The notes beneath the pieces are model-generated. The model had not been told where the DNA came from. It saw only the letters and a program-made list of their open reading frames with translations, and did no database searches. Source: Salinisphaera shabanensis E1L3A (GTDB lineage: Bacteria > Pseudomonadota > Gammaproteobacteria > Nevskiales > Salinisphaeraceae). From it: a stretch of DNA of 64,000 nt. This document shows, piece by piece, positions 419 to 13,108 of this stretch. Position 1 is the stretch's first letter. Every line of letters begins with the position of its first letter. Position numbers and translations under genes: made by a program. The stretch spans positions 62,001-126,000 of the forward strand of contig NZ_AFNV02000001.1 of the NCBI RefSeq assembly GCF_000215955.2, written 5' to 3'.

Positions 419-505
419 GCCCGGGTGGCGGAACTGGTAGACGCGCCGGATTCAAAATCCGGTTCTGGCAACAGAGTGCGAGTTCGATTCTCGCCCCGGG
501 CACCA
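419..505 (+). tRNA. tRNA-Leu, anticodon CAA
   Basis: The sequence folds as a class II tRNA. The seven-base acceptor arm GCCCGGG pairs with CCCGGGC, the D-arm contains GGCGGAACTGGTAGACGC, and the anticodon stem CCGGA/TCCGG encloses the loop TTCAAAA, giving anticodon CAA. A long variable arm precedes a T-arm with GTTCGATTC, and CCA is encoded. It reads UUG leucine codons. Its 3' end (492-505) is the insertion point of the integrative element that follows. Confidence 0.98.
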
Positions 506-506
506 T
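492..506 (+). repeat. attL core (tRNA-Leu 3' end)
   Basis: CGCCCCGGGCACCAT spans the end of the T-arm, the acceptor strand and the CCA of tRNA-Leu. The same string minus one G occurs at 5736-5749. The copy next to the integrase keeps the tRNA intact, as expected if the element supplied the 3' end on integration. Confidence 0.8.
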
Positions 507-543
507 CATCGCTTCCGAGCGGTTCCCAAGAGAGCCACGAATC

Positions 544-576
544 AGCCCGCAACCATTGGCCTAGCGGGCTTTTTTG
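544..576 (+). terminator. Rho-independent terminator downstream of tRNA-Leu
   Basis: AGCCCGC (544-550) pairs with GCGGGCT (564-570) around a 13-base loop and is followed by a T run to 575. It lies inside the element, so the element seems to bring its own terminator for the tRNA it sits behind, which would also shield the integrase from read-through. Confidence 0.8.
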
Positions 577-610
577 TGCCTATACCGTCCAACAGCGTCT
601 ATTGCCATCC

Positions 611-669
611 GGGGGTACGTGGGGGTACTTTCGGGGGTACTTGCCCAGCGGGCGCCACGAAGTACCCCC
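611..669 (+). repeat. Integrase arm-type sites, left end (GGGGGTAC repeats)
   Basis: Three direct copies of GGGGGTAC begin at 611, 621 and 633, and one inverted copy (GTACCCCC) lies at 662-669, just before the integrase start at 676. The 12-base step between the second and third copies, and the TACTTT bases between them, recur at the right end of the element. Repeats of this kind inside the att sites are typical arm-binding sites of tyrosine integrases; their position over the int promoter suggests autoregulation. Binding is inferred. Confidence 0.65.
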
Positions 670-675
670 AACGCC

Positions 676-1878
676 ATGCCCCTTACTGCCGTCCAAGCCA
701 AGCAGGCCAAGCCTAGAGCCAAACAGTACAAGATCGCGGACGGCGGCGGCCTGTACTTGCTGGTGAAGCCTAACGGCGGCAAATACTGGCGAATGAAATA
801 CCGCGTTCACGGCAAGGAAAAGACCTTAGCCTTTGGCACCCTCGCGGATGTAACGCTCGCCGACGCACGCACCCGACGGGAGCAAGCCCGCAAGCAGCTA
901 GGCGCCGGTCAAGACCCGATGGAAGTAAAACGGCTGCGAGACGAAGCCGCTAAAGCTAACGCGGCTAACTCCTTTAAAGCCGTGGCGCTGGAATGGCACG
1001 AACACAAGCGGCCTCGCTGGAGTGAGAAGCACGCCGCCAAGGTGCTGCGCTCACTAGACGCCGATGTATTCCCGCATATCGGCAAACGCCCCGTCGCCGA
1101 AATCACCGCGCCCGAACTGCTGCGCGTGATACGTCGCATAGAAAAGCGCGACGCCCTGGACTATTCGCACCGCGTGCTACAACGCATTGGCATGGTGTTC
1201 CGGTACGCCATCGTCACCAGCAAGGCAACGTATAACCCCAGCGCCGATCTGGTCGGCGCGCTCAAGACGCGCAAGACCAAGAACCACGCTGCCCTGTCAC
1301 GCGACGACCTGCCCGCTTTTCTGCGAAGCCTCGACAGCTACGACGGCCACCTGCTGACACGCTACGGCTTGCAGCTAATCGCCCTCACCTTTCTACGCAC
1401 CGCCGAGCTACGCACCGCCGAATGGCACGAGATCGACTTCGACCGGGCCGAATGGCGCGTGCCTGCCGAACGCATGAAGATGGGCAGCGAACATATCGTG
1501 CCGCTATCCACGCAGGCCATCGACGTGCTGAACGCCCTCCAACCGATCACCGGGTATTACCGCTATATCTTCACCGGACGGAACAGCACGACCCGGCCAA
1601 TGAGCGAAAACACGCTGCTCTACGCCCTCTACCGCATGGGCTACAAGCGACAGGCGACCGTCCACGGCTTCCGGGCGACGGCTTCAACAATTCTCAATGA
1701 GAGCGGCTTCCATCGAGACGCCATCGAGCGGCAGCTAGCGCACGCTGAAAAAGACAAAGTACGCGCCGCTTACCACCGATCCGAATATTTGGAGGAACGC
1801 CGAACGATGATGCAGTGGTGGGCCGACTATCTAAGCGGGTTGAAGCCGAGGAGCAGCGCTGTGTCGATGAAGGGTTAA
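676..1878 (+). CDS. int: P4-type tyrosine recombinase integrase
   Basis: A 400-residue site-specific recombinase that would integrate and excise the element at tRNA-Leu. The N-terminus (about 1-90, DGGGLYLLVKPNGGKYW) is the DUF4102 arm-binding domain of P4-like integrases, followed by a core-binding domain (about 95-190). The catalytic set is visible: Arg241 in LRTAEL, His330 and Arg333 in HGFRATA, His356 and the nucleophile Tyr366 in AAYHRSEY. The ATG at 676 (MPLTAVQ) is chosen because family members start this way; an upstream in-frame ATG at 574 would put the arm repeats inside the gene. It directly follows the tRNA and is three bases from the next gene, so the two may be co-transcribed. 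Confidence 0.95.
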   Translation: MPLTAVQAKQAKPRAKQYKIADGGGLYLLVKPNGGKYWRMKYRVHGKEKTLAFGTLADVTLADARTRREQARKQLGAGQDPMEVKRLRDEAAKANAANSFKAVALEWHEHKRPRWSEKHAAKVLRSLDADVFPHIGKRPVAEITAPELLRVIRRIEKRDALDYSHRVLQRIGMVFRYAIVTSKATYNPSADLVGALKTRKTKNHAALSRDDLPAFLRSLDSYDGHLLTRYGLQLIALTFLRTAELRTAEWHEIDFDRAEWRVPAERMKMGSEHIVPLSTQAIDVLNALQPITGYYRYIFTGRNSTTRPMSENTLLYALYRMGYKRQATVHGFRATASTILNESGFHRDAIERQLAHAEKDKVRAAYHRSEYLEERRTMMQWWADYLSGLKPRSSAVSMKG

Positions 1879-1881
1879 CTC

Positions 1882-2988
1882 ATGTGCAGTATTGAGCGTT
1901 CAATAAAAGCGGATTCGTTACCCGTGCCCGATGTTCCCGAAGAATACGCGCTCGAAGTTCGAGACCGAATAATCGAGGATCGACAAGCGACAGAAGATAT
2001 CGACCGGATCGGCGCGGTGGGCAGTAGGATGCGCCACGAATACGAGATAGCGGCTCGTTTATTTTTTGATCAACGAATGCGGAATTTTTGGACACAAGCC
2101 CGAAAAAAGGGGCCGACAGATAGGTACCTAGAATATCTCGATGAACAAGAGAAGGCCGAAGAAGAAAATTACGGGAAGCCGCTCCGCTCCAGGCAACTAC
2201 TGCACGAGAAACCCCTTGAGGTCGCGCTCAAGAACTTGGCTATATACATCCAAGTCTTAACTTATCCGCTACCTCGACATCTCAACGGTGATACGAAAAC
2301 GCGAAAACGTGAACTCGATCGAGTTATCGGCAGCCTTCGTAACGCGTCGCAGGCACTGCGTGGGTCGCCGTATTACGACGTGCCTGTCTTAGGCTACGTC
2401 CGCACGCCCCACCTTCGGCACTACGTAAGTCGCGAAATTGAGAACTACAGAGACCAATTCATAGAGGTCTTTAATCCGTCTTTAGCGCTTAAAATAAATC
2501 AAATCGATAACGCGATACCCGTACCAGTCAATCCGACGGACGAAGCGATGGACGATTGGTTGGACAAGCGATACGCGGCATCAGATAGCTTGATTGCACT
2601 CGAAGGAGGAACACTCGACGAAGACGATATAAATACGCTTTTCGAACAGATCACAGACTCTATAACCGGCAACTTCAATAAGAACGCAGATCGAGCTTTC
2701 AAACTCCGAAAACTTGGCGACGACGAAGCCCCGGAATCGCTTTCAGAGTTTCTAGACAATATAAGCGACAAGCTGAACTCGGTATCAGAAAGCATCCAGA
2801 TAGACCCAGACAACCCAAGACCAAACGAGAAGAATGCCAGTTTAAGAGCTTTCTGCCGCAGACTTGATTCGTTTCTACGTGAGGCGTTTCAGGTTAGCTC
2901 TCCTACGCAGGTAGCGATATGTGCAAACGTGGTACTCGGTGCGACGGTAGACGCGGATAAAGTAAAGAGCTGGCGAATCGATAGTTAA
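1882..2988 (+). CDS. Unknown AT-rich cargo protein of the integrative element
   Basis: A 368-residue protein I do not recognise. It is acidic and charged, probably mostly helical, with no signal peptide, no membrane segment and no obvious nucleotide-binding or nuclease motif. Its start lies three bases after the integrase stop, so translation is likely linked to int. Base composition differs from its neighbours: two sampled 60-base lines gave 43% and 37% G+C, against about 60% for integrase and chromosome. Codons such as ATA and AAA are frequent, pointing to recent and separate acquisition. In small satellites the site next to int often holds phage-defence or exclusion cargo, so such a role is possible, but this is inferred from position only. 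Alternatives are an excision partner or a regulator. Confidence 0.75.
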   Translation: MCSIERSIKADSLPVPDVPEEYALEVRDRIIEDRQATEDIDRIGAVGSRMRHEYEIAARLFFDQRMRNFWTQARKKGPTDRYLEYLDEQEKAEEENYGKPLRSRQLLHEKPLEVALKNLAIYIQVLTYPLPRHLNGDTKTRKRELDRVIGSLRNASQALRGSPYYDVPVLGYVRTPHLRHYVSREIENYRDQFIEVFNPSLALKINQIDNAIPVPVNPTDEAMDDWLDKRYAASDSLIALEGGTLDEDDINTLFEQITDSITGNFNKNADRAFKLRKLGDDEAPESLSEFLDNISDKLNSVSESIQIDPDNPRPNEKNASLRAFCRRLDSFLREAFQVSSPTQVAICANVVLGATVDADKVKSWRIDS

Positions 2989-3044
2989 AGGGGTTGCTTC
3001 GGACAAAAGCCTTCCCAAAACCCACCTGTAACCGTTTAGAGCAT

Positions 3045-3093
3045 GATTCCAATATAAGCGTACGCCATCCTCACAGACCCAAGGACGTACGCT
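3045..3093 (+). promoter_or_regulatory. Promoter/operator of the alpA operon with 8-base inverted repeat
   Basis: AGCGTACG (3057-3064) and CGTACGCT (3086-3093) form a perfect inverted repeat with 21 bases between the arms, ending exactly at the ATG of the AlpA-like gene. A TATAAG-like -10 overlaps the first arm (3053-3058), and an AAGGA ribosome site lies between the arms. The layout suits an operator bound by the AlpA-like protein, or a hairpin that limits translation. Function is inferred. Confidence 0.45.
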
Positions 3094-3288
3094 ATGCCAA
3101 AGCCTTCTCTGCTACGACTCCCAACTGTAAAAGCCCGTACCGGGCAATCGCGTAGTGCAATCTATGCCGCTATCCAACGCGGCGAGTTTCCCAAGCCCGT
3201 ACCCATAGGCGCGCGGGCAGTCGCTTGGGTCGAATCCGAGATAGACGAGTACATCGAGCGCCAGATTCAGCGCCGGGGTGCGGCATGA
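3094..3288 (+). CDS. alpA: AlpA-family phage regulator/excisionase
   Basis: A 64-residue winged-helix DNA-binding protein of the AlpA family. It matches the family pattern along its whole length: LRLPTVKARTG, then SRSAIYAAI as the recognition helix, then GEFPKPVPIG, AVAW, and a final helix SEIDEYIERQI. In P4-like and other satellites AlpA proteins switch on excision and replication genes or act as the excisionase. Here it opens a run of five ORFs that each overlap the next by four bases, so it is likely made together with the replication protein. An inverted repeat immediately upstream may be its binding site. Confidence 0.88.
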   Translation: MPKPSLLRLPTVKARTGQSRSAIYAAIQRGEFPKPVPIGARAVAWVESEIDEYIERQIQRRGAA

Positions 3289-3434
3289 ACGCCCCAGCCT
3301 GGAAGCTCGAACTGCTCGCGCTCGCCTACCGTTACACCGAAACCGGAGTGCAGTACGACCTGGCCGCCATGAATGACGCAGAGCAATACGCCGCGTTGTC
3401 TTGGCTGCGCCGATATGCGGAGGGCCGGGCATGA
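3285..3434 (+). CDS. Small hypothetical element protein (49 aa)
   Basis: This ORF starts with the ATGA overlap at the end of the AlpA-like gene and runs 49 residues (MNAPAWKLELLALAYRY...). It contains no cysteines or membrane segment and is probably a short helical protein. I do not recognise it. Support for being real comes from the exact four-base stop/start overlaps on both sides and the absence of any gap in the operon. A second AlpA-coupled regulator is possible but there is no direct evidence. Confidence 0.6.
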   Translation: MNAPAWKLELLALAYRYTETGVQYDLAAMNDAEQYAALSWLRRYAEGRA

Positions 3435-3682
3435 AATCGCTACGCCAGCCCATCGACGCCAAGTGTAAGGACTGCATTTACGACCCGGGCAGCGGCCTGG
3501 GTACGTGGCGCGAACAGATTGCCCAATGCGCCGCGTTCGCCTGCCCCCTATGGCCTGTCCGCACCGGGCCGGAGTCCGGGCCATACCAACGCCCCGCCAT
3601 CGACGCCGAACTGCGCCAAGCCGCCGACAAGCGGCGACGAGCGCGCCTGCCCGGCAATAGCGGCATGGAGGGCACACCATGA
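3431..3682 (+). CDS. Small cysteine-rich phage/satellite protein (83 aa)
   Basis: An 83-residue protein starting MKSLRQPIDAKCKDC. Four cysteines (CKDC near 12-15, then AQC and ACPLWPVR near 34-39) suggest a small zinc-binding fold. The motif pattern KxCxYDPGSGxGxWRxQ and CPLWPVRP is one I recall from small conserved proteins encoded beside replication genes in prophages and islands; their function is not known to me. The start overlaps the previous stop (ATGA), and the end overlaps the next start in the same way. A nucleic-acid-binding role is a guess. Confidence 0.75.
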   Translation: MKSLRQPIDAKCKDCIYDPGSGLGTWREQIAQCAAFACPLWPVRTGPESGPYQRPAIDAELRQAADKRRRARLPGNSGMEGTP

Positions 3683-3816
3683 AACGGCGACAAGATAGCC
3701 CCGGCTACGTCAATAGCCGAGGCCGCGAGGCAAGCCCGCTTTACTGCACCGCGATTCAATCGCAACCGGGCCGGAATGTCTACAAATGCCAACATCGCGG
3801 ACGGGCGCAGCCATGA
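3679..3816 (+). CDS. Very small hypothetical protein (45 aa)
   Basis: A 45-residue ORF beginning MKRRQDSPGYVNSRG and ending in QHRGRAQP, linked by ATGA overlaps to the gene before (3679-3682) and the gene after (3813-3816). It is strongly basic with two cysteines (in LYCTA and YKCQH), compatible with a small nucleic-acid-binding peptide. It falls below common gene-calling length limits. Its reality rests on the unbroken overlap chain: without it, the primase gene would sit behind a 130-base gap. Confidence 0.55.
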   Translation: MKRRQDSPGYVNSRGREASPLYCTAIQSQPGRNVYKCQHRGRAQP

Positions 3817-4889
3817 GCGGCGGCGATACCAGCACGCTCGATCTGGCAGCGGCAGCAACGTTCTTGAAGCGTCTAGCGCCCGATGGAAAGCTGACGTTTC
3901 AGACCTTTGACGACACGCGCGCTAAGCGGCGGCATCTTAACCGTGTACTCCACGGCTCGCTGGATCGTCATGCTTGCGAACTGACACGCTTGAACGCGGC
4001 GGGCGCAGGTGTGTTCGTCATGGTCAACCGAGGCGATCTAAAGGCCCGTACCACCAAGAGCGTAACGCAGGTTCGGGCGCTGTTTCTCGACCTGGACGGC
4101 GCCCCACTAGAGCCTGTCCGAAGCGCGGCCGTTGCGCCACATCTTGTAACGGAAACAAGTCCGGGGCGGTTCCATGCCTATTGGTGCGTAGATACCCTAG
4201 CGCTCGGCCAATTCAAGGCGATGCAGCAAGCCCTGGCTGAAGCCTTCGGCGGCGATCCGAAGGTGTGCGACCTGCCCCGCGTCATGCGCCTGCCCGGCTT
4301 CTACCATCGAAAGCGTAGCGCCTTCATGGTGAGATTGATCGAGTGTACCGGCGGCCCGCCACGCAGCGGCCACGAACTGCTTGAACAGCTAGGCGCAGAT
4401 ACCCCTACCATTCGCCCGGATTACCAGCACGGCCACGGCACGCCGCCATCACGGCAGTTTGCCAAGCTCGACTACGTGCATCTGGAGCACGAGAACTATC
4501 TGCGCCTAAGCCCGCTAGCACGCACGCTGCTGCTCGAACTGGTCAAGCAGTACAACGGCTTCAATAACGGCGATCTGACGCTTGCGCCCGCTACGCTCAA
4601 GCAGCGCGGCCTGGAACTCGGCAAGCGCACGATCTGGCGGGCACGCGATGAGCTGCTGGCTTGCGGCTGGGTCGTCTACACCCGAACACGCCCCCGGCAG
4701 TGTTATCTGCTCGCTCTAACGTTCAAGCCTATAGACGCCTGCAACGGCAAGCACGATGCAGTGCCTACCAGCATCGCGCCCGATCTATGGAAGCAGCCAC
4801 CGGATGAAAGCAGGTGCAGTCTCGACACCAGCCTGGTGCGCTCACATCACCAGCACCGGCAATCCGACCGCCACGATGAAGCAGCGTAA
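3813..4889 (+). CDS. RepB-type DNA primase with C-terminal winged helix (element replication protein)
   Basis: A 358-residue protein likely to start replication of the excised element. The N-terminal half is a RepB-like primase domain of the archaeo-eukaryotic fold: the metal site FLDLDG (Asp93 and Asp95), then ETSPGRFHAYW (His121) and the family block CDLPRVMRLPGFYHRK (152-167). Residues about 235-300 (LTLAPATLKQRGL, KRTIWRARDELLACGWV) resemble a winged helix of phage replication initiators. No helicase domain is present, so host or helper-phage helicase would be needed. The start ATG overlaps the previous stop. A tail rich in His, Ser and Gln (about 330-358) looks disordered. Confidence 0.82.
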   Translation: MSGGDTSTLDLAAAATFLKRLAPDGKLTFQTFDDTRAKRRHLNRVLHGSLDRHACELTRLNAAGAGVFVMVNRGDLKARTTKSVTQVRALFLDLDGAPLEPVRSAAVAPHLVTETSPGRFHAYWCVDTLALGQFKAMQQALAEAFGGDPKVCDLPRVMRLPGFYHRKRSAFMVRLIECTGGPPRSGHELLEQLGADTPTIRPDYQHGHGTPPSRQFAKLDYVHLEHENYLRLSPLARTLLLELVKQYNGFNNGDLTLAPATLKQRGLELGKRTIWRARDELLACGWVVYTRTRPRQCYLLALTFKPIDACNGKHDAVPTSIAPDLWKQPPDESRCSLDTSLVRSHHQHRQSDRHDEAA

Positions 4890-5044
4890 GAGCGTAACTG
4901 ATTGATTCACGGTCGCGGGATCGGCGCTCGCTGGTGCTTTCCATGTACCCCTATATACATCTGCCAGTCCTAGGGTGCTGGTGTGTGTGATTGGAGGGGT
5001 TAAGGCCGACGATCGAACGCAATGAGCCGAGGCGATAACAGACG
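4890..5044 (+). other. Non-coding stretch after the primase gene, possible replication origin
   Basis: About 155 bases without a convincing gene. It contains short inverted repeats, for example ATGTA...TACAT around 4944-4961 and CCAG...CTGG around 4965-4982, and a G-rich purine tract near 4995. Satellite and phage replicons often place the origin beside the initiator gene, so this is a candidate origin. No iteron array is visible. Confidence 0.25.
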
Positions 5045-5311
5045 ATGAGCCAGATTAAACACGCAGTACGCACGCGCCCGTACTATCTAGCCCGACAGAC
5101 CGCGCTAGATGCCCGCATCGAACGAACGCGAACGTTAACAAAAGCTAACAGGGTTGCTTGTGGGGCGAAGCGTCGGAGCGACGGCGAGCCTTGCGAGGCA
5201 CCGAGCGTACCGGGCAAACGGCGTTGCAAATGGCATGGCGGATGCTCGACCGGGCCACGGACTCCCGAAGGCAAGGCGCGAGTGGCGGAAAACCTAAACC
5301 ACAGGCGATAG
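5045..5311 (+). CDS. HGGxSTGP motif-containing protein
   Basis: An 88-residue basic protein. The second half carries CGAKRRSDGEPCEAPSV and KWHGGCSTGPRTPEGKAR, the signature of the small HGGxSTGP proteins of phages, prophages and islands. The paired cysteines with the HGG box suggest a small zinc-binding or nucleic-acid-binding fold; the molecular role is not established. It is the last clear gene of the element, separated from the primase by the possible origin region. The ATG at 5045 is the first good start. Confidence 0.85.
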   Translation: MSQIKHAVRTRPYYLARQTALDARIERTRTLTKANRVACGAKRRSDGEPCEAPSVPGKRRCKWHGGCSTGPRTPEGKARVAENLNHRR

Positions 5312-5735
5312 GAAAATCGCTGATATATCTTGATTCTTAATCAAAAAATGAAGCTGACTGGTAGCCAGATTGCCGCCCGATCACGCAAAAAGTATCCAGC
5401 TTTAGCATCTAGCAATTGGTCGAGCGATCTACGTAGCAAACCGCCGAACTTTAGAGGCCGCCCCCAGCTAGTCCTATGCTTCATAGCCGCCCGGGCCGGA
5501 GTTTTTCCCGCCCATAACGCGCGCGCACGGGCGCGAATGACTTTGGCGCTACGAGTCTATTTTCGTCTACTTTAGTAAAAATTATCGTCGCGGCCACGGT
5601 CGATCATCGCCGCCGTGCAACCGAGGCCAACGGCAGCGCAGCAACGATTTTTGGGGGTACTTTTGGGGGTACTTTGTCGCCATATATCGCGATAAACGCT
5701 TTTATTACATATATATATGACTTGAATATGGTAGC
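5312..5735 (+). other. Right-end non-coding region of the element
   Basis: About 420 bases with no gene I can support. A weak 75-codon frame (5348-5575, MKLTGSQIAARSRKK...) shows no family resemblance and has an arginine-rich, low-complexity end; I regard it as doubtful. The stretch includes an AT-rich patch near 5320-5350 and another at 5680-5730, and the right-hand GGGGGTAC repeats. It probably holds the right arm of the att site. Confidence 0.5.
5653..5672 (+). repeat. Integrase arm-type sites, right end (two GGGGGTAC copies)
   Basis: GGGGGTAC begins at 5653 and again at 5665, a 12-base step with TTTT between the copies. The left end has the same pair (621 and 633) with TTTC between, so a 22-base segment matches at 21 positions. 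The copies lie in direct orientation, 64 bases inside the right core site. Confidence 0.7.
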
Positions 5736-5749
5736 CGCCCCGGCACCAT
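5736..5749 (+). repeat. attR core (degenerate copy of tRNA-Leu 3' end)
   Basis: CGCCCCGGCACCAT equals the tRNA-Leu 3' end at 492-506 except for one missing G. It is followed by chromosomal sequence with a LysE-family remnant. The missing base sits in the copy that no longer serves a tRNA, so it is free to drift; this fits it being the displaced original end. Confidence 0.75.
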
Positions 5750-5800
5750 TCGTGATCTGGCCGCGGGCAAGACGCACCACGGCGCGGCAGGCTTCTATCG

Positions 5801-6151
5801 ATGCCTCGACGCCGCAGGCCGCGACGTGATCGCGAAGGCCGACAGTCCGCTCGCGGCTGGCTATTGCGCGGACTGGGCACGAATCTGCTCACCCCCAAGG
5901 TGGGCTTGTTCTACGTCAGCTTTCTGCCGCAGTTCATTCCGGCCAACGTCAACGTCATCGCGTTCAGCACGCTATTGGCCGCGATTCATGCCGGACTCAC
6001 TCTGCCCTGGTTCGTTCTGCTCATATCGGCCACCCGGCCGTTTGCCGGTGCACTCGGCCGCCCGGCAGTCACACGCACGCTCGATGGCATAACCGGCACG
6101 GTGCTCATCGGCTTCGGTCTGCGCCTCGCGCTCTTACCCCACGCACGCTAA
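5801..6151 (+). pseudogene. LysE/RhtB-family amino-acid exporter, 3' remnant
   Basis: From about 5857 the frame reads GLGTNLLTPKVGLFYVSFLPQF, the hallmark of the second half of LysE/RhtB exporters, followed by two or three more hydrophobic segments and a normal family end. Full proteins have about 200-210 residues; the N-terminal half, with the first membrane segments, is absent. The upstream part of this frame is arginine-rich and not family-like. The fragment begins about 50 bases after attR, so the break may result from an earlier insertion or deletion at this tRNA hotspot. Confidence 0.75.
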
Positions 6152-9639: not shown

Positions 9640-12426
9640 TCAGCCCGTATTGCGCATGCCGGCAGCGATCGCGTTGATCGAGCGCAACACCGGATCCAGC
9701 CATACACGATCGCCGCCTTCACGATAGCGCGTGAGCGCGGTGATCTGAATATGGTTGAGCGGATCGAGATACGGCCGACGCCGATCCAGCGAGCGTTTGA
9801 GCACGGCATCGTCGTCAAGCAGCGCGGTCTCTCCGGTAATCGCGAGTATACGCTCGACGGCGCGCTCGTACTCGGCCTTGATGGATTCGAAAATCGCGTT
9901 CTGTGCCGGTGCAAGCTCGGCATACGTTGCCGCGATGCGCAGGTCTGCCTTGGCCAGCGACATCTGCACGCTGTCGATAATGGTGCGGAAATACGGCCAG
10001 TCGCGATAGAGCGCTACCAGCTCGTCGTTGTCGATACCGGCGTCGTTGAGCGCCGTGCCCACGCCGAGCCAGCCGGGCAAGGTATGGCGCGACTGTGCCC
10101 AGGCGAAAACCCAGGAAATCGCCCGAATCGAGGACTTGCCGCGTACCGCCTTGCGATGGCCGGGCCGCGAACCGATATTCAGCGCGCCAATTTCGGCCGT
10201 GGGCGTGGCCGCATAGAAATAATCGAAAAAGCCGTCGGTGTCTTCGGTCAGACGCCGATAGAACGCCTCGCCGGTATCCGATAGTGCGCTGGCGATACGG
10301 GAATGATCGGTATCGTCGGTGGCAAAACCGCTGGCCTTGAGCGTGCCGGTGATACCGAGCGTGAGCTCGTGCACGGCGGTTTCCGGATTGCTGTACTTGG
10401 CGAAGATCATTTCGCCCTGCTCGGTGAACTTGATCCGCGAACGCACCGTGCCCGGCGGCTGCGACACGATCGCCTGATGGGTCGGCCCGCCACCACGGCC
10501 GACGGTGCCGCCACGACCATGAAACAGCAGACTGTCGACCTCGTGCTTATCGCACACCGCGACCGCCAGCTGCTGGGCTTTATACAGCTGCCAGCGCGAG
10601 GCCATGATGCCGCCGTCCTTGCAGGAATCCGAATAGCCGAGCATGACTTCCTGTCGGCGCGTGCCGTCGCCCTGGGCTTCGAGGAATGCGCGATAGGCCG
10701 GCTGACCCAGCAGGCCGTCGAGCACCGGTTCGATATGCTCGAGATCGGCCACGGTTTCGAACAACGGCGCGATCGCCAGCGGCGGCGTAACCGCCCCCGG
10801 CTCATAGACGCCGGTTGCACGCATCAGCCATAGCAGCGCGAGCATGTCCGAAACGTTGTGCGTCATCGAAATCACGTAACTGCCAAAGGCATCAACACCC
10901 AGTGTGCGGGTGAATTCGCGTACCACCGCAAGGCTGTCGAGCGTATCGCCCACGTCACCGGACACATCCACCCGTGCCACGTCGGGCACCTCGTCGCGCG
11001 CGAGCTGCGCGGCCAGTATCTCGGTACGTGCGGCGTCGTCGAGCGATTCGTAGTCTTCGCAGATGTCGAGCGCGGCAAACAGCTCGTGAATGCACCGGGT
11101 ATGACGGGTGGATTCTTCGCGCAGATCCAGCCGCGCGAGATGAAAACCGAATGTCTGTACCAGACGCTGCAGATCTTTGATTTCATCCTCGGCGATCGCC
11201 TCATCGCCGTGCCCGGCCAGCGATTCGCGCATGATCCGGATTTCGTCGACCAGTTCGGCGGCGCTGTTATAGGCGACCGGGCTGCGTTCGCTGCGCTCGG
11301 CGCGCAGGCGCAACTCGGTCTGCAGCTGATCGACCATCGCGGAGATGCGCTGGCGCATGAGATAGAGCTTGCGCCGATAGGGTTCGGCCGCAAAGCGTTC
11401 GGCGCGTACGCCGGTATGCGCGGCAATCCGTTGTTCGTCGTCGGCCAGTGACTGCCAGAACGCATCGCTGGGATTGCACCAACGTGCCGAAAACGACAGC
11501 CGGCTGGCCAGATGATCGATCCGCCGCAAATATTCGGAAAGCACCTCGCGCGCCTGCATGCGCAATGCATAACGGGTCTCGCGCGCGGTGACGTACGGGT
11601 TGCCGTCGCGATCGCCGCCAATCCAGGAGCCGAAATCCAGCACGGTCGGCGGCTCCACGCGTTCGCCGTAGGCATTGGACAAGGCGCGTTCGAGGTTGCG
11701 ATAGATCACCGGCACGCTGGAAAACAGCGATGCACGGAAGTAATAGAGGCCGTTGCGGATCTCGTCCGCGACGGTCGGGCGCGAGCCACGCAGTTCTTCG
11801 GTTTTCCAGAGCACTTGAATGTTCTGGCGAATGTGTTCCTCGATCTCGGCGTGGCGGCGCTCATCGGGCGTATCGAAGGCCAGTTCGCGAAACCACTCGA
11901 ACAGACGCCGCAATGCGTCGAGCACCGCACGCGGTTTGGCTTCAGTGGGGTGCGCGGTAAACACCGGCATGAATGACAGCCGCTCAAGCCGCGCAAGCGC
12001 CTGCTCCAGACTCACCCCCTCGTCGGCCAGATCGGTAAAACTGCGATTGAACGAACCGATCCACTGCGGGTTGCCATTGGCCGCCAGCGCGCGTCGGGTG
12101 CGATGCGCATGCAGTTCTTCGAGCAGGTTGGCGAGATTGAAATAGATCGCGAAGGCCCGGGTGACCTCGGTCATCGTCTCGGCCGGCAGACCGGCAACCA
12201 GCGCCTGCAGCTCGGCACGCTTTTGCGCGTCGTCTTGTTCGCGTAGCGCGATATAGCCGCGCCTCAGGATTTCCACGGTATCGAAGACGCCCTCGCGCGC
12301 CTGCGAGCGCAATACGTCGCCCAGCAATGTACCGGCTGCGCGGACTTGCGCGCGCAGCGCTTCATCGTGGGCAGCGACGTCGGTCGTGCTCATCGCCGGG
12401 TGTTTTTCATTGATCGACGGATTCAT
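9640..12426 (-). CDS. ppc: Phosphoenolpyruvate carboxylase
   Basis: This enzyme carboxylates phosphoenolpyruvate to oxaloacetate and feeds the citric acid cycle. At 928 residues it has the normal bacterial length. Visible signatures are VFTAHPTEAKPR with catalytic His159, LGYSDSCKDGG, the glycine-rich loop FHGRGGTVGRGGGP, GSRPGHRK, and the conserved C-terminal RNTG. A start at 12393 (MSTTDVAAH) is also possible; neither has a strong ribosome site. It is transcribed away from the NUDIX gene. Confidence 0.98.
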   Translation of the reverse strand: MNPSINEKHPAMSTTDVAAHDEALRAQVRAAGTLLGDVLRSQAREGVFDTVEILRRGYIALREQDDAQKRAELQALVAGLPAETMTEVTRAFAIYFNLANLLEELHAHRTRRALAANGNPQWIGSFNRSFTDLADEGVSLEQALARLERLSFMPVFTAHPTEAKPRAVLDALRRLFEWFRELAFDTPDERRHAEIEEHIRQNIQVLWKTEELRGSRPTVADEIRNGLYYFRASLFSSVPVIYRNLERALSNAYGERVEPPTVLDFGSWIGGDRDGNPYVTARETRYALRMQAREVLSEYLRRIDHLASRLSFSARWCNPSDAFWQSLADDEQRIAAHTGVRAERFAAEPYRRKLYLMRQRISAMVDQLQTELRLRAERSERSPVAYNSAAELVDEIRIMRESLAGHGDEAIAEDEIKDLQRLVQTFGFHLARLDLREESTRHTRCIHELFAALDICEDYESLDDAARTEILAAQLARDEVPDVARVDVSGDVGDTLDSLAVVREFTRTLGVDAFGSYVISMTHNVSDMLALLWLMRATGVYEPGAVTPPLAIAPLFETVADLEHIEPVLDGLLGQPAYRAFLEAQGDGTRRQEVMLGYSDSCKDGGIMASRWQLYKAQQLAVAVCDKHEVDSLLFHGRGGTVGRGGGPTHQAIVSQPPGTVRSRIKFTEQGEMIFAKYSNPETAVHELTLGITGTLKASGFATDDTDHSRIASALSDTGEAFYRRLTEDTDGFFDYFYAATPTAEIGALNIGSRPGHRKAVRGKSSIRAISWVFAWAQSRHTLPGWLGVGTALNDAGIDNDELVALYRDWPYFRTIIDSVQMSLAKADLRIAATYAELAPAQNAIFESIKAEYERAVERILAITGETALLDDDAVLKRSLDRRRPYLDPLNHIQITALTRYREGGDRVWLDPVLRSINAIAAGMRNTG

Positions 12427-12508
12427 GTCTCAGCCGTTTGCATGGTTCGTGCCGACTCGCAGAATAGCAGCGCACGGATCGCCACTCGTTGTCTGCTAAT
12501 CTTGCGCG

Positions 12509-13108
12509 ATGCCGAAACCCATGACGTACTGCCCCAACTGCGGCGCGCCGACCGAGTTCAAGATCCCGGCAGGCGATGACCGCAAGCGCAATATCTGCAC
12601 CGCCACCGGCGAGATCTTTTACGACAACCCGCGCAACGTGGTGGGCTGTATTGTCGAGCATGAAGACAAGATCCTCATGTGCCGGCGTGCGATCGAGCCG
12701 CGGCTGGGTTTCTGGACGTTGCCGGCCGGTTTTCTGGAGCTGGGCGAAACGATCTATCAGGGTGCGGCGCGCGAAACCCGCGAAGAAGCCCAGGCCGAAG
12801 TCCGCGACGCCGAGCTGTTCGCGATGATCGACGTGACCCATATCGGGCAGGTGCATATCTTCTATCGTGCAAAACTGGCCGGCAGCCACTACGGCGCAGG
12901 TCAGGAAAGCCAGATTGCCCTCCTGCAAAGCGAAGACGAGATCGAATGGTCGCAGCTGGCCTTTCCGACCATTCATCGGGCGCTGAGCCATTATTTCGCC
13001 GACCGCGCGCGCGGGCGCTTCGAGCTGCATACCGACGATCTTGGCGCCGACGACTGGCGACAGATGAATCTCGATCGCGTCGCCAGAACGGCCGACGAGC
13101 AATCCTAA
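12509..13108 (+). CDS. NUDIX hydrolase with N-terminal zinc ribbon
   Basis: A 199-residue hydrolase that would act on nucleoside diphosphates linked to another group. The N-terminus has YCPNCGAP, half of a zinc ribbon, and the NUDIX box is GFLELGETIYQGAARETREEA, matching GX5EX7REUXEE. The arrangement resembles NudC-like or ADP-ribose-type enzymes, but the second cysteine pair is not complete (only NICTATG). The specific substrate cannot be set from sequence. Confidence 0.88.
   Translation: MPKPMTYCPNCGAPTEFKIPAGDDRKRNICTATGEIFYDNPRNVVGCIVEHEDKILMCRRAIEPRLGFWTLPAGFLELGETIYQGAARETREEAQAEVRDAELFAMIDVTHIGQVHIFYRAKLAGSHYGAGQESQIALLQSEDEIEWSQLAFPTIHRALSHYFADRARGRFELHTDDLGADDWRQMNLDRVARTADEQS

Follow-up and report, generated by a model that had tools for sequence, protein, structure and literature searches.

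The 64-kb window, by which we mean the whole stretch of Salinisphaera shabanensis E1L3A analysed here, contains at positions 492-5749 an integrative element of 5,244 bp, counting one copy of its attachment (att) site. The element is real, intact and small, and it lies at the 3' end of a tRNA-Leu(CAA) gene. Its genes follow the order int - X - alpA - o49 - o83 - o45 - Rep - HGGxSTG, the main ones all on the + strand; a gap of 3 nt separates X from the stop codon of int, and alpA, o49, o83, o45 and rep are joined by successive ATGA overlaps. The scan of the element frames, o45 included, turned up no structural gene, no large terminase and no conjugation gene. The features are listed below in window positions, G007 being the genome of another, distant species of the genus, which carries a sister element.

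419-505, + strand: tRNA-Leu, anticodon CAA, the integration target, left intact (ARAGORN; Rfam 60.1 bits)
492-506, + strand: attL core CGCCCCGGGCACCAT, 3' end of tRNA-Leu(CAA)
543-576, + strand: terminator-like hairpin and T run at the left end of the element, recognised by eye; the G007 element has a similar one at its left end
611-669, + strand: left arm-type repeats GGGGGTAC at 611, 621 and 633, with an inverted copy at 662
676-1878, + strand: int, P4-type tyrosine integrase, 400 aa, 91% identical to G007 int
1882-2988, + strand: X, contiguous with int, 368 aa, low GC
3094-3288, + strand: alpA, excisionase/regulator, 64 aa (PF05930, 1.6e-18)
3285-3434, + strand: o49, 49 aa, ATGA overlap with alpA, 84% identical in G007
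3431-3682, + strand: o83, 83 aa, Cys-rich, with 48-49% identical relatives before rep in loci L175 and L184
3679-3816, + strand: o45, 45 aa, ATGA overlap on each side, similar frame in G007, no PHROG match
3813-4889, + strand: Rep, 358 aa, RepB'-type primase (residues 1-200) and winged-helix domain (205-350), no helicase domain
4944-4977, + strand: weak candidate for a motif that follows winged-helix genes elsewhere; borderline, reached by 1 of 300 local shuffles, no nhmmer match at E 5
5045-5311, + strand: HGGxSTG-domain protein, 88 aa (HGG_STG NF041373, 6.2e-16)
5348-5575, + strand: o75, doubtful 75-aa frame, no family match
5653-5672, + strand: right arm-type repeats GGGGGTAC at 5653 and 5665
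5730-5749, + strand: right end of the element GGTAGCCGCCCCGGCACCAT, containing attR, 20 bases identical to the end of the G007 element
5736-5749, + strand: attR CGCCCCGGCACCAT, one G fewer than attL
5750-6151, + strand: lysE remnant without its 5' half, in the host flank (LysE PF01810, profile positions 91-191 of 193)

Limits of the element and its site in the genus

The near-duplicate tRNA-Leu 3' ends singled out in a preliminary description of this DNA proved specific: within one edit, the att core has two matches only, attL and attR, on both strands of the 64-kb window, where shuffling gives a mean of 0.04 matches by chance (+ strand). The sister element of G007 confirms attR. Because this sister has the identical 20-base right end, the one-base difference between attL and attR belongs to the element, and the reading of attR as plain native lysE sequence was dropped on the same ground. 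The GGGGGTAC repeat occurs six times in the window, every copy at one of the two ends of the element, with 0.66 expected per shuffle; we take these repeats to be probable integrase arm sites, as in tyrosine integrases. The residues R, HxxR, H and Y that Int should have are present by pattern, and the GC content of the element is 57.7% versus 62.2% for the window beyond 6,500, the minimum lying in X. The P4-type integrase, AlpA, RepB-type primase and HGGxSTG protein recognised earlier were all confirmed by family matches and motifs.

The tRNA site is present in all 14 of the 14 genomes of the genus, and the lineage of the window element occupies it in the genome of E1L3A itself (G000) and in G007. 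The G007 element (L071), enlarged to 7.6 kb by an ISL3 transposase, has the left-end terminator and the arm repeats in common with that of the window. The encoded proteins of the two are 90.8% (int), 92.2% (alpA), 83.7% (o49) and 83.1% (o83) identical, and DNA homology covers int with the upstream end (84% over 1,326 bp) and alpA-o49-o83 (85% over 609 bp), X and the region beyond o45 being different. The left-end terminator sequence (~100 bp) is repeated after attR in G007 (L071 8257-8360), as if left over from an earlier tandem element.

The insertion postulated earlier is matched by empty sites in G003, G006 and G008, where an intact lysE comes next after the tRNA (L003-L005). The gene before the tRNA is 97-98% identical over 116 aa between these three genomes and that of E1L3A, and neither Rep nor X has a match in any of the three. 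Since the G007 integrase is ~91% identical, while flanking host proteins are only 50-88% identical (18 pairs, 50.3-87.9%) and three close relatives are empty, we conclude that the element moves horizontally. Compared with the empty sites, the window lacks the 5' half of lysE and the tRNA-lysE spacer, ~400 bp by estimate, and to judge from these sequences the right-flank deletion came with or after the insertion.

No integrase lies beside the tRNA in G001, G003, G006, G008, G011 and G012, the last having a weak 25% integrase match ~7 kb from it; the contigs of G002 and G005 end at the tRNA, so that occupancy of the site is not readable there. Integrases 75-77% identical adjoin the same tRNA in G004, G009, G010 and G013. 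The element in G013 (L075) encodes TopB, ParA, SSB and AcaB by Pfam and resembles an integrative and conjugative element (ICE); the gene calls in G004 (L073) and G010 (L074) are similar to this set, and the G009 contig ends after int, leaving only the integrase visible. As tRNA-Leu(CAA) is used also in hosts of other families (L181, L183), the site loses the distinctive character once given to it. The sharing of the site with ICE-like elements, together with the resemblance of the primase to RepB' of the mobilisable plasmid RSF1010, would suit an integrative mobilisable element that relies on a conjugative helper for transfer; however, the frames scanned contain no relaxase, mobilisation family or conjugation gene, and we regard this explanation as highly improbable.

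Replication protein, candidate origin and int-adjacent gene

The first 200 residues of Rep match RepB_primase (PF16793, 8.1e-17) and, by sequence, RSF1010 RepB' (8.5e-5); the predicted fold (mean pLDDT 85.8) matches the PrimPol of cyanophage S-2L (6zp9, 3e-10) and RepB' (3h20/3h25), and the primase motifs DLDG, GRFHAYW and DLPRVMRLPGF are in place. Rep is thus like RSF1010 RepB' in its catalytic domain, by sequence and predicted fold, and differs from it in that its C-terminal winged helix belongs to a different family; neither a helicase nor an initiator was seen as a separate gene in the element. The winged-helix domain (205-350) occurs elsewhere as a standalone protein, of 135-172 aa among the 14 genes compared but of 256 aa in prophage L077, with weak matches to replication families: a DnaD-like helicase loader in L171 (4.4e-5) and 'replication initiation O-like' for the G404 copy (1.9e-4). 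A profile of the winged-helix family finds Rep, whose own domain is part of it, and gives weak matches to three short primases, those of L022, L023 (both ~1e-10) and L029 (1e-4), with no match in L025 or in the seven long primase-helicases tested; the E-values for this profile, like those of the comparisons of X with G404, G382 and G021 below, refer to small custom sequence sets. Because the profile finds so few primases carrying the winged helix, the fusion is rare among the loci examined. Among the titles and abstract starts listed from openly licensed PubMed Central papers, none describes a satellite with a RepB'-type primase-winged-helix protein, nothing came up for RepB primase together with phage satellite, and no title on Salinisphaera and prophages was relevant. 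The proposal of a new lineage of minimal satellites keeps its real int/AlpA/primase element with a rare fusion, and gives up the tRNA-Leu site as a mark of it.

In L063, L065-L068, L166-L172 and L174, repeats judged palindromic by eye are found right behind the stop codon of the winged-helix gene, and a motif near CACCTTTATATATCTACCATG comes after them. Repeat pairs 43-45 bp apart are present in 8 of 14 loci, the two-copy cases alone not being significant; at least three copies of a 9-mer are present in 6 of 14 loci, which 0 of 200 shuffles reach, those of L067 lying beyond the motif. Over 645 kb of loci, a profile of the motif gave nine matches below E 0.01, all downstream of standalone winged-helix genes and all in training loci; outside training, the sole good match is in L077 at 7717 (E 0.015), and G404 has none. 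The motif is not convincingly present in the window. The arrangement of repeats and motif would fit an iteron origin behind its initiator, and may alternatively represent a regulated promoter shared by many alpA elements.

The class search over 368 other genomes gave two distant relatives of X, in G404 and G382, which score 23.4 and 20.0 bits against X and 57 bits against each other. Each fills precisely the slot enclosed by an integrase and an HTH_17-type alpA; next in order, G404 has the winged-helix protein and G382 a DUF3987 primase. A profile search of X over 398 genomes of the phylum found only G404 besides the own genome; a frame of G021 in the same slot matches X marginally (full sequence 6.8e-4, best domain 0.29), and the weak matches in G246 and G324 were dropped, their frames being read by eye as a Clp-type ATPase and an RmuC-like protein. 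Among 14 int-alpA slot frames from 13 other loci, none is related to X by phmmer, and only those of L023 and L028 matched mutually; X has no match in phages, plasmids, viral contigs or 84 other genomes of the order. The one PADLOC match of X, LmuA at E 0.018, was not used to call it a known defence gene, and the AlphaFold model of X reaches a pLDDT of only 41.8 (three sequences).

Since both relatives occupy the same int-alpA slot, X is more likely a working part than random cargo, contrary to its first description as an unknown cargo gene. The corresponding genes of the phage-inducible chromosomal minimalist islands (PICMIs), which overlap or adjoin int, belong to 13 families, and the single one tested was needed for excision, according to PMC10803314. 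By analogy, we prefer an excision role for X to the alternative of an anti-phage cargo.

Comparable elements and packaging

The order int-X-alpA-rep, looked for in other genomes, recurs in other hosts. Comparator gene calls come from a codon-usage script that misses genes (X and alpA in the window among them), so that gene lists are approximate. Searches with the primase led to 12 loci in named genomes and to a viral contig of 40 kb; a related integrase lies upstream in 9 of these 13. Direct repeats were found in 9 of 23 distinct loci examined; that of L182 resembles arm-type repeats, not a tRNA end. The elements so delimited are those of Sideroxydans (L026, 8.6 kb), Stutzerimonas (L030 and L031, 7.7 and 6.6 kb), a Holophagaceae (L033, 9.9 kb), G043 (L076, 10.3 kb), G253 (10.5 kb), G439 (6.3 kb) and G220 (7.1 and 8.9 kb). 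One of the two G220 elements lies at tRNA-Leu(CAA) and the other reads int-X-alpA-o83-winged helix; G138 has alpA-o83-primase. Ten AlpA-like genes were checked, seven of which match HTH_17 (L184 below the cut-off); that of L182 matches AlpA just below the cut-off, and those of L032 and L076 match no family. A protein of 200-240 aa recurs in minimal int-alpA elements (L071 4823-5452, L022 5230-5949, L023 4004-4690, L079 7905-8510) and is absent from the window element; its L071 copy has no PHROG match and its L022 copy no Pfam match.

A bulk scan covered 62 of the 116 predicted proteins of 10 delimited comparators, L076 being excluded whole, as were int, alpA, primase, winged-helix and transposase genes, some o83 and o49 genes and some short frames. 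These 62 accessory proteins, from the nine comparators other than L076, include no capsid, portal, tail or large-terminase family (25 of 26 PHROG families and nine Pfam families), and their only packaging families are small terminases, in L026. This element, at tRNA-Lys, has two of them, Terminase_4 and Terminase_2 (11431-11757 and 12077-12511), and no large terminase in the genes called. L032, L076 and L193 each have a small terminase as well, that of L193 matching phrog_51 (9e-10) but scoring below the Pfam cut-off; of these loci, L032 and L193 are not delimited. A sixth candidate gene, in L180, was not supported. As a large-terminase probe, phrog_2 was rejected: having matched in 11 of 14 control genomes, it carries no information on prophages. 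In L076 (3988-14302, G043), 28-bp repeats flank 10.3 kb with an integrase, a winged-helix protein and a small terminase; because it also holds structural genes, its small terminase is not counted in favour of a satellite, and the whole may represent either a prophage in decay or a satellite that forms capsids.

Could the window element itself be what remains of the left arm of a prophage that has decayed? The full prophage L077 has the alpA-winged-helix module, as does L076, possibly itself decayed, and RepB-type primase domains are found in 119 phage records. Yet the main frames of the window element are intact, and it has both of its ends, one of which recurs in the G007 element; no capsid, portal, large-terminase or tail gene lies in the frames scanned, and the nine other direct-repeat-delimited elements measure 6.3-10.5 kb, with no structural family in the eight scanned (all but L076). 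No full prophage was seen at this tRNA in relatives, which bears out the earlier view for the readable sites, several loci being incompletely covered (G004 and G010 not scanned gene by gene; G002, G005 and G009 cut by contig ends). We consider a prophage remnant improbable. In G062, two prophage regions with the same gene calls, L077 and L078, lie ~200 kb apart on one contig, by duplication or as an assembly artefact (9% contamination is listed).

At E 1e-3, 37 phage records have a match to the HGGxSTG protein. The one in Bacillus phage 019DV002 corresponds to the N-terminal part of a putative small terminase gene, 1.8 kb before the large terminase, and vB_BpsS-36 has the same layout without the small-terminase label; in the Pectobacterium phage with a match, the neighbours shown are all hypothetical. 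Openly licensed PubMed Central gave nothing for HGGxSTG, or for HGG with terminase small subunit. The tie of this protein to small terminases is a lead, not proof. The first description of the element as free of structural and packaging genes accordingly holds for the structural genes in the frames scanned and becomes uncertain for packaging.

A candidate phage satellite

We propose, with a probability of about 60%, that the window element is an intact minimal integrative element of the phage-satellite type, PICMI-like in its gene content. According to PMC10803314, excision of PICMI115 needs int, iolg and alpA, its replication needs prim, and a phage packages it; induction and packaging by a virulent phage are among the traits of PICMIs. 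The window element resembles the PICMIs of Vibrionaceae in its int with an adjacent gene of changing family, its alpA, its primase, its few accessory genes and its lack of capsid genes, and at 5.2 kb it is smaller than PICMI115 (6.1 kb) and than the PICMI mean of 6.7 kb. Int, alpA and primase are co-located, and X is contiguous with int without overlapping it, overlapping (iolg) or contiguous (icg) genes being common and not universal in PICMIs. It differs by its site, tRNA-Leu(CAA) instead of the 'hallmark' fis; by its primase, RepB'-type with a winged helix (RepB_primase PF16793 alone matching at E 0.1) instead of DUF3987/DUF5906; and by its host outside Vibrionaceae, and its packaging by a phage is putative. 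It would work like a PICMI while lacking two of the defining features, fis and DUF3987/DUF5906.

With P4-like satellites (PMC8628076) it shares a P4-type integrase, AlpA and a primase; Psu, delta, epsilon and alpha gave no Pfam match at E 0.1 in eight element frames. The Gram-negative phage-inducible chromosomal islands (PICIs) such as EcCICFT073 are alike in int, AlpA and a replication gene, and in PICIs primase and initiator are sometimes fused, with the origin behind, some carrying terS (PMC6092414); for packaging, a PICI would have either a terS homologue or the cos site of its helper. The window element has such a primase-initiator-like fusion, an only borderline origin and no clear small terminase or cos; int does not run opposite to the replication genes, a soft criterion, that layout being described for Gram-positive PICIs. 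It thus partly agrees with a PICI.

In the model that we favour, an incoming helper phage would switch alpA on, and Int with X and AlpA would excise the element. Rep would bind an origin and prime DNA synthesis, borrowing helicase and polymerase from the host or the phage, to yield circles or concatemers. The helper terminase would then package these into unmodified helper capsids, by way of a mimicked packaging site or of the HGGxSTG protein, and the packaged element would reinsert in a new host.

Several observations weigh against this model. Excision, replication and packaging are deduced from genes; the window element has no small terminase by Pfam and no cos or pac site was identified in it, cos recognition requiring a helper; and the clear repeats that follow winged-helix genes are missing in the window, as in G404. 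With ~400 bp lost from the right flank, the att pair is possibly not in its original state. PF05065, the only capsid type searched, has no match in the genome of E1L3A (97.5% complete) and one in G007. The winged-helix module occurs in prophage L077 together with large-terminase, head and portal genes, and L076 contains the second half of a major head gene (1.7e-20) and a tape-measure gene (3e-116), which slightly lowers our confidence in a satellite. X and o83 have no match in viral contigs, Rep matched only one contig, of 40 kb, and among the best 80 of 140 int-related viral contigs alpA is present in 37 and a match to Rep, o49 or o83 in none. The IMG/VR contig L093 (5.6 kb) fits in size and was rejected, being by eye a phage-like early region with two integrase-like starts.

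The main competitor is a small self-integrating element that travels passively, by transformation, generalised transduction or with conjugative elements, and is not a dedicated satellite. It draws on the lack of a certain packaging gene in the window element, on the ICE-like elements with related integrases at the same tRNA (by Pfam in G013, by gene calls in G004 and G010, by the integrase only in G009) and on the existence of AlpA islands without transfer genes of their own, though one that was tested was transduced by phage (PMC12595487). A dedicated replication protein in a compact alpA-rep set would, however, seem superfluous for a passive island, and related elements carry small terminases; we hold passive travel to be unlikely, if less so than a prophage remnant.

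Could the satellite proposed here belong to a widespread, unnamed group of minimal satellites of 5-10 kb, built as int - X - alpA - small genes - Rep with an exchangeable replication part, and found mostly in Gammaproteobacteria (betaproteobacterial orders included)? We put this forward tentatively, as a possibility that we do not favour outright. If so, the parts exchanged would be the primase-winged-helix fusion, a standalone winged-helix initiator with an iteron-like origin, a primase-helicase and a DUF3987 primase, and the window copy, below the PICMI prototype in size, would use a hybrid primase-initiator without requiring its own helicase. These observations suggest that the PICMI-style design, which is to excise, replicate and borrow the rest, recurs beyond fis and Vibrionaceae, at different sites and with different replication proteins. 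If an int-X-alpA core does recur with swappable replication, the needs of the smallest working satellite, and the role of the int-adjacent gene, would become open to test.

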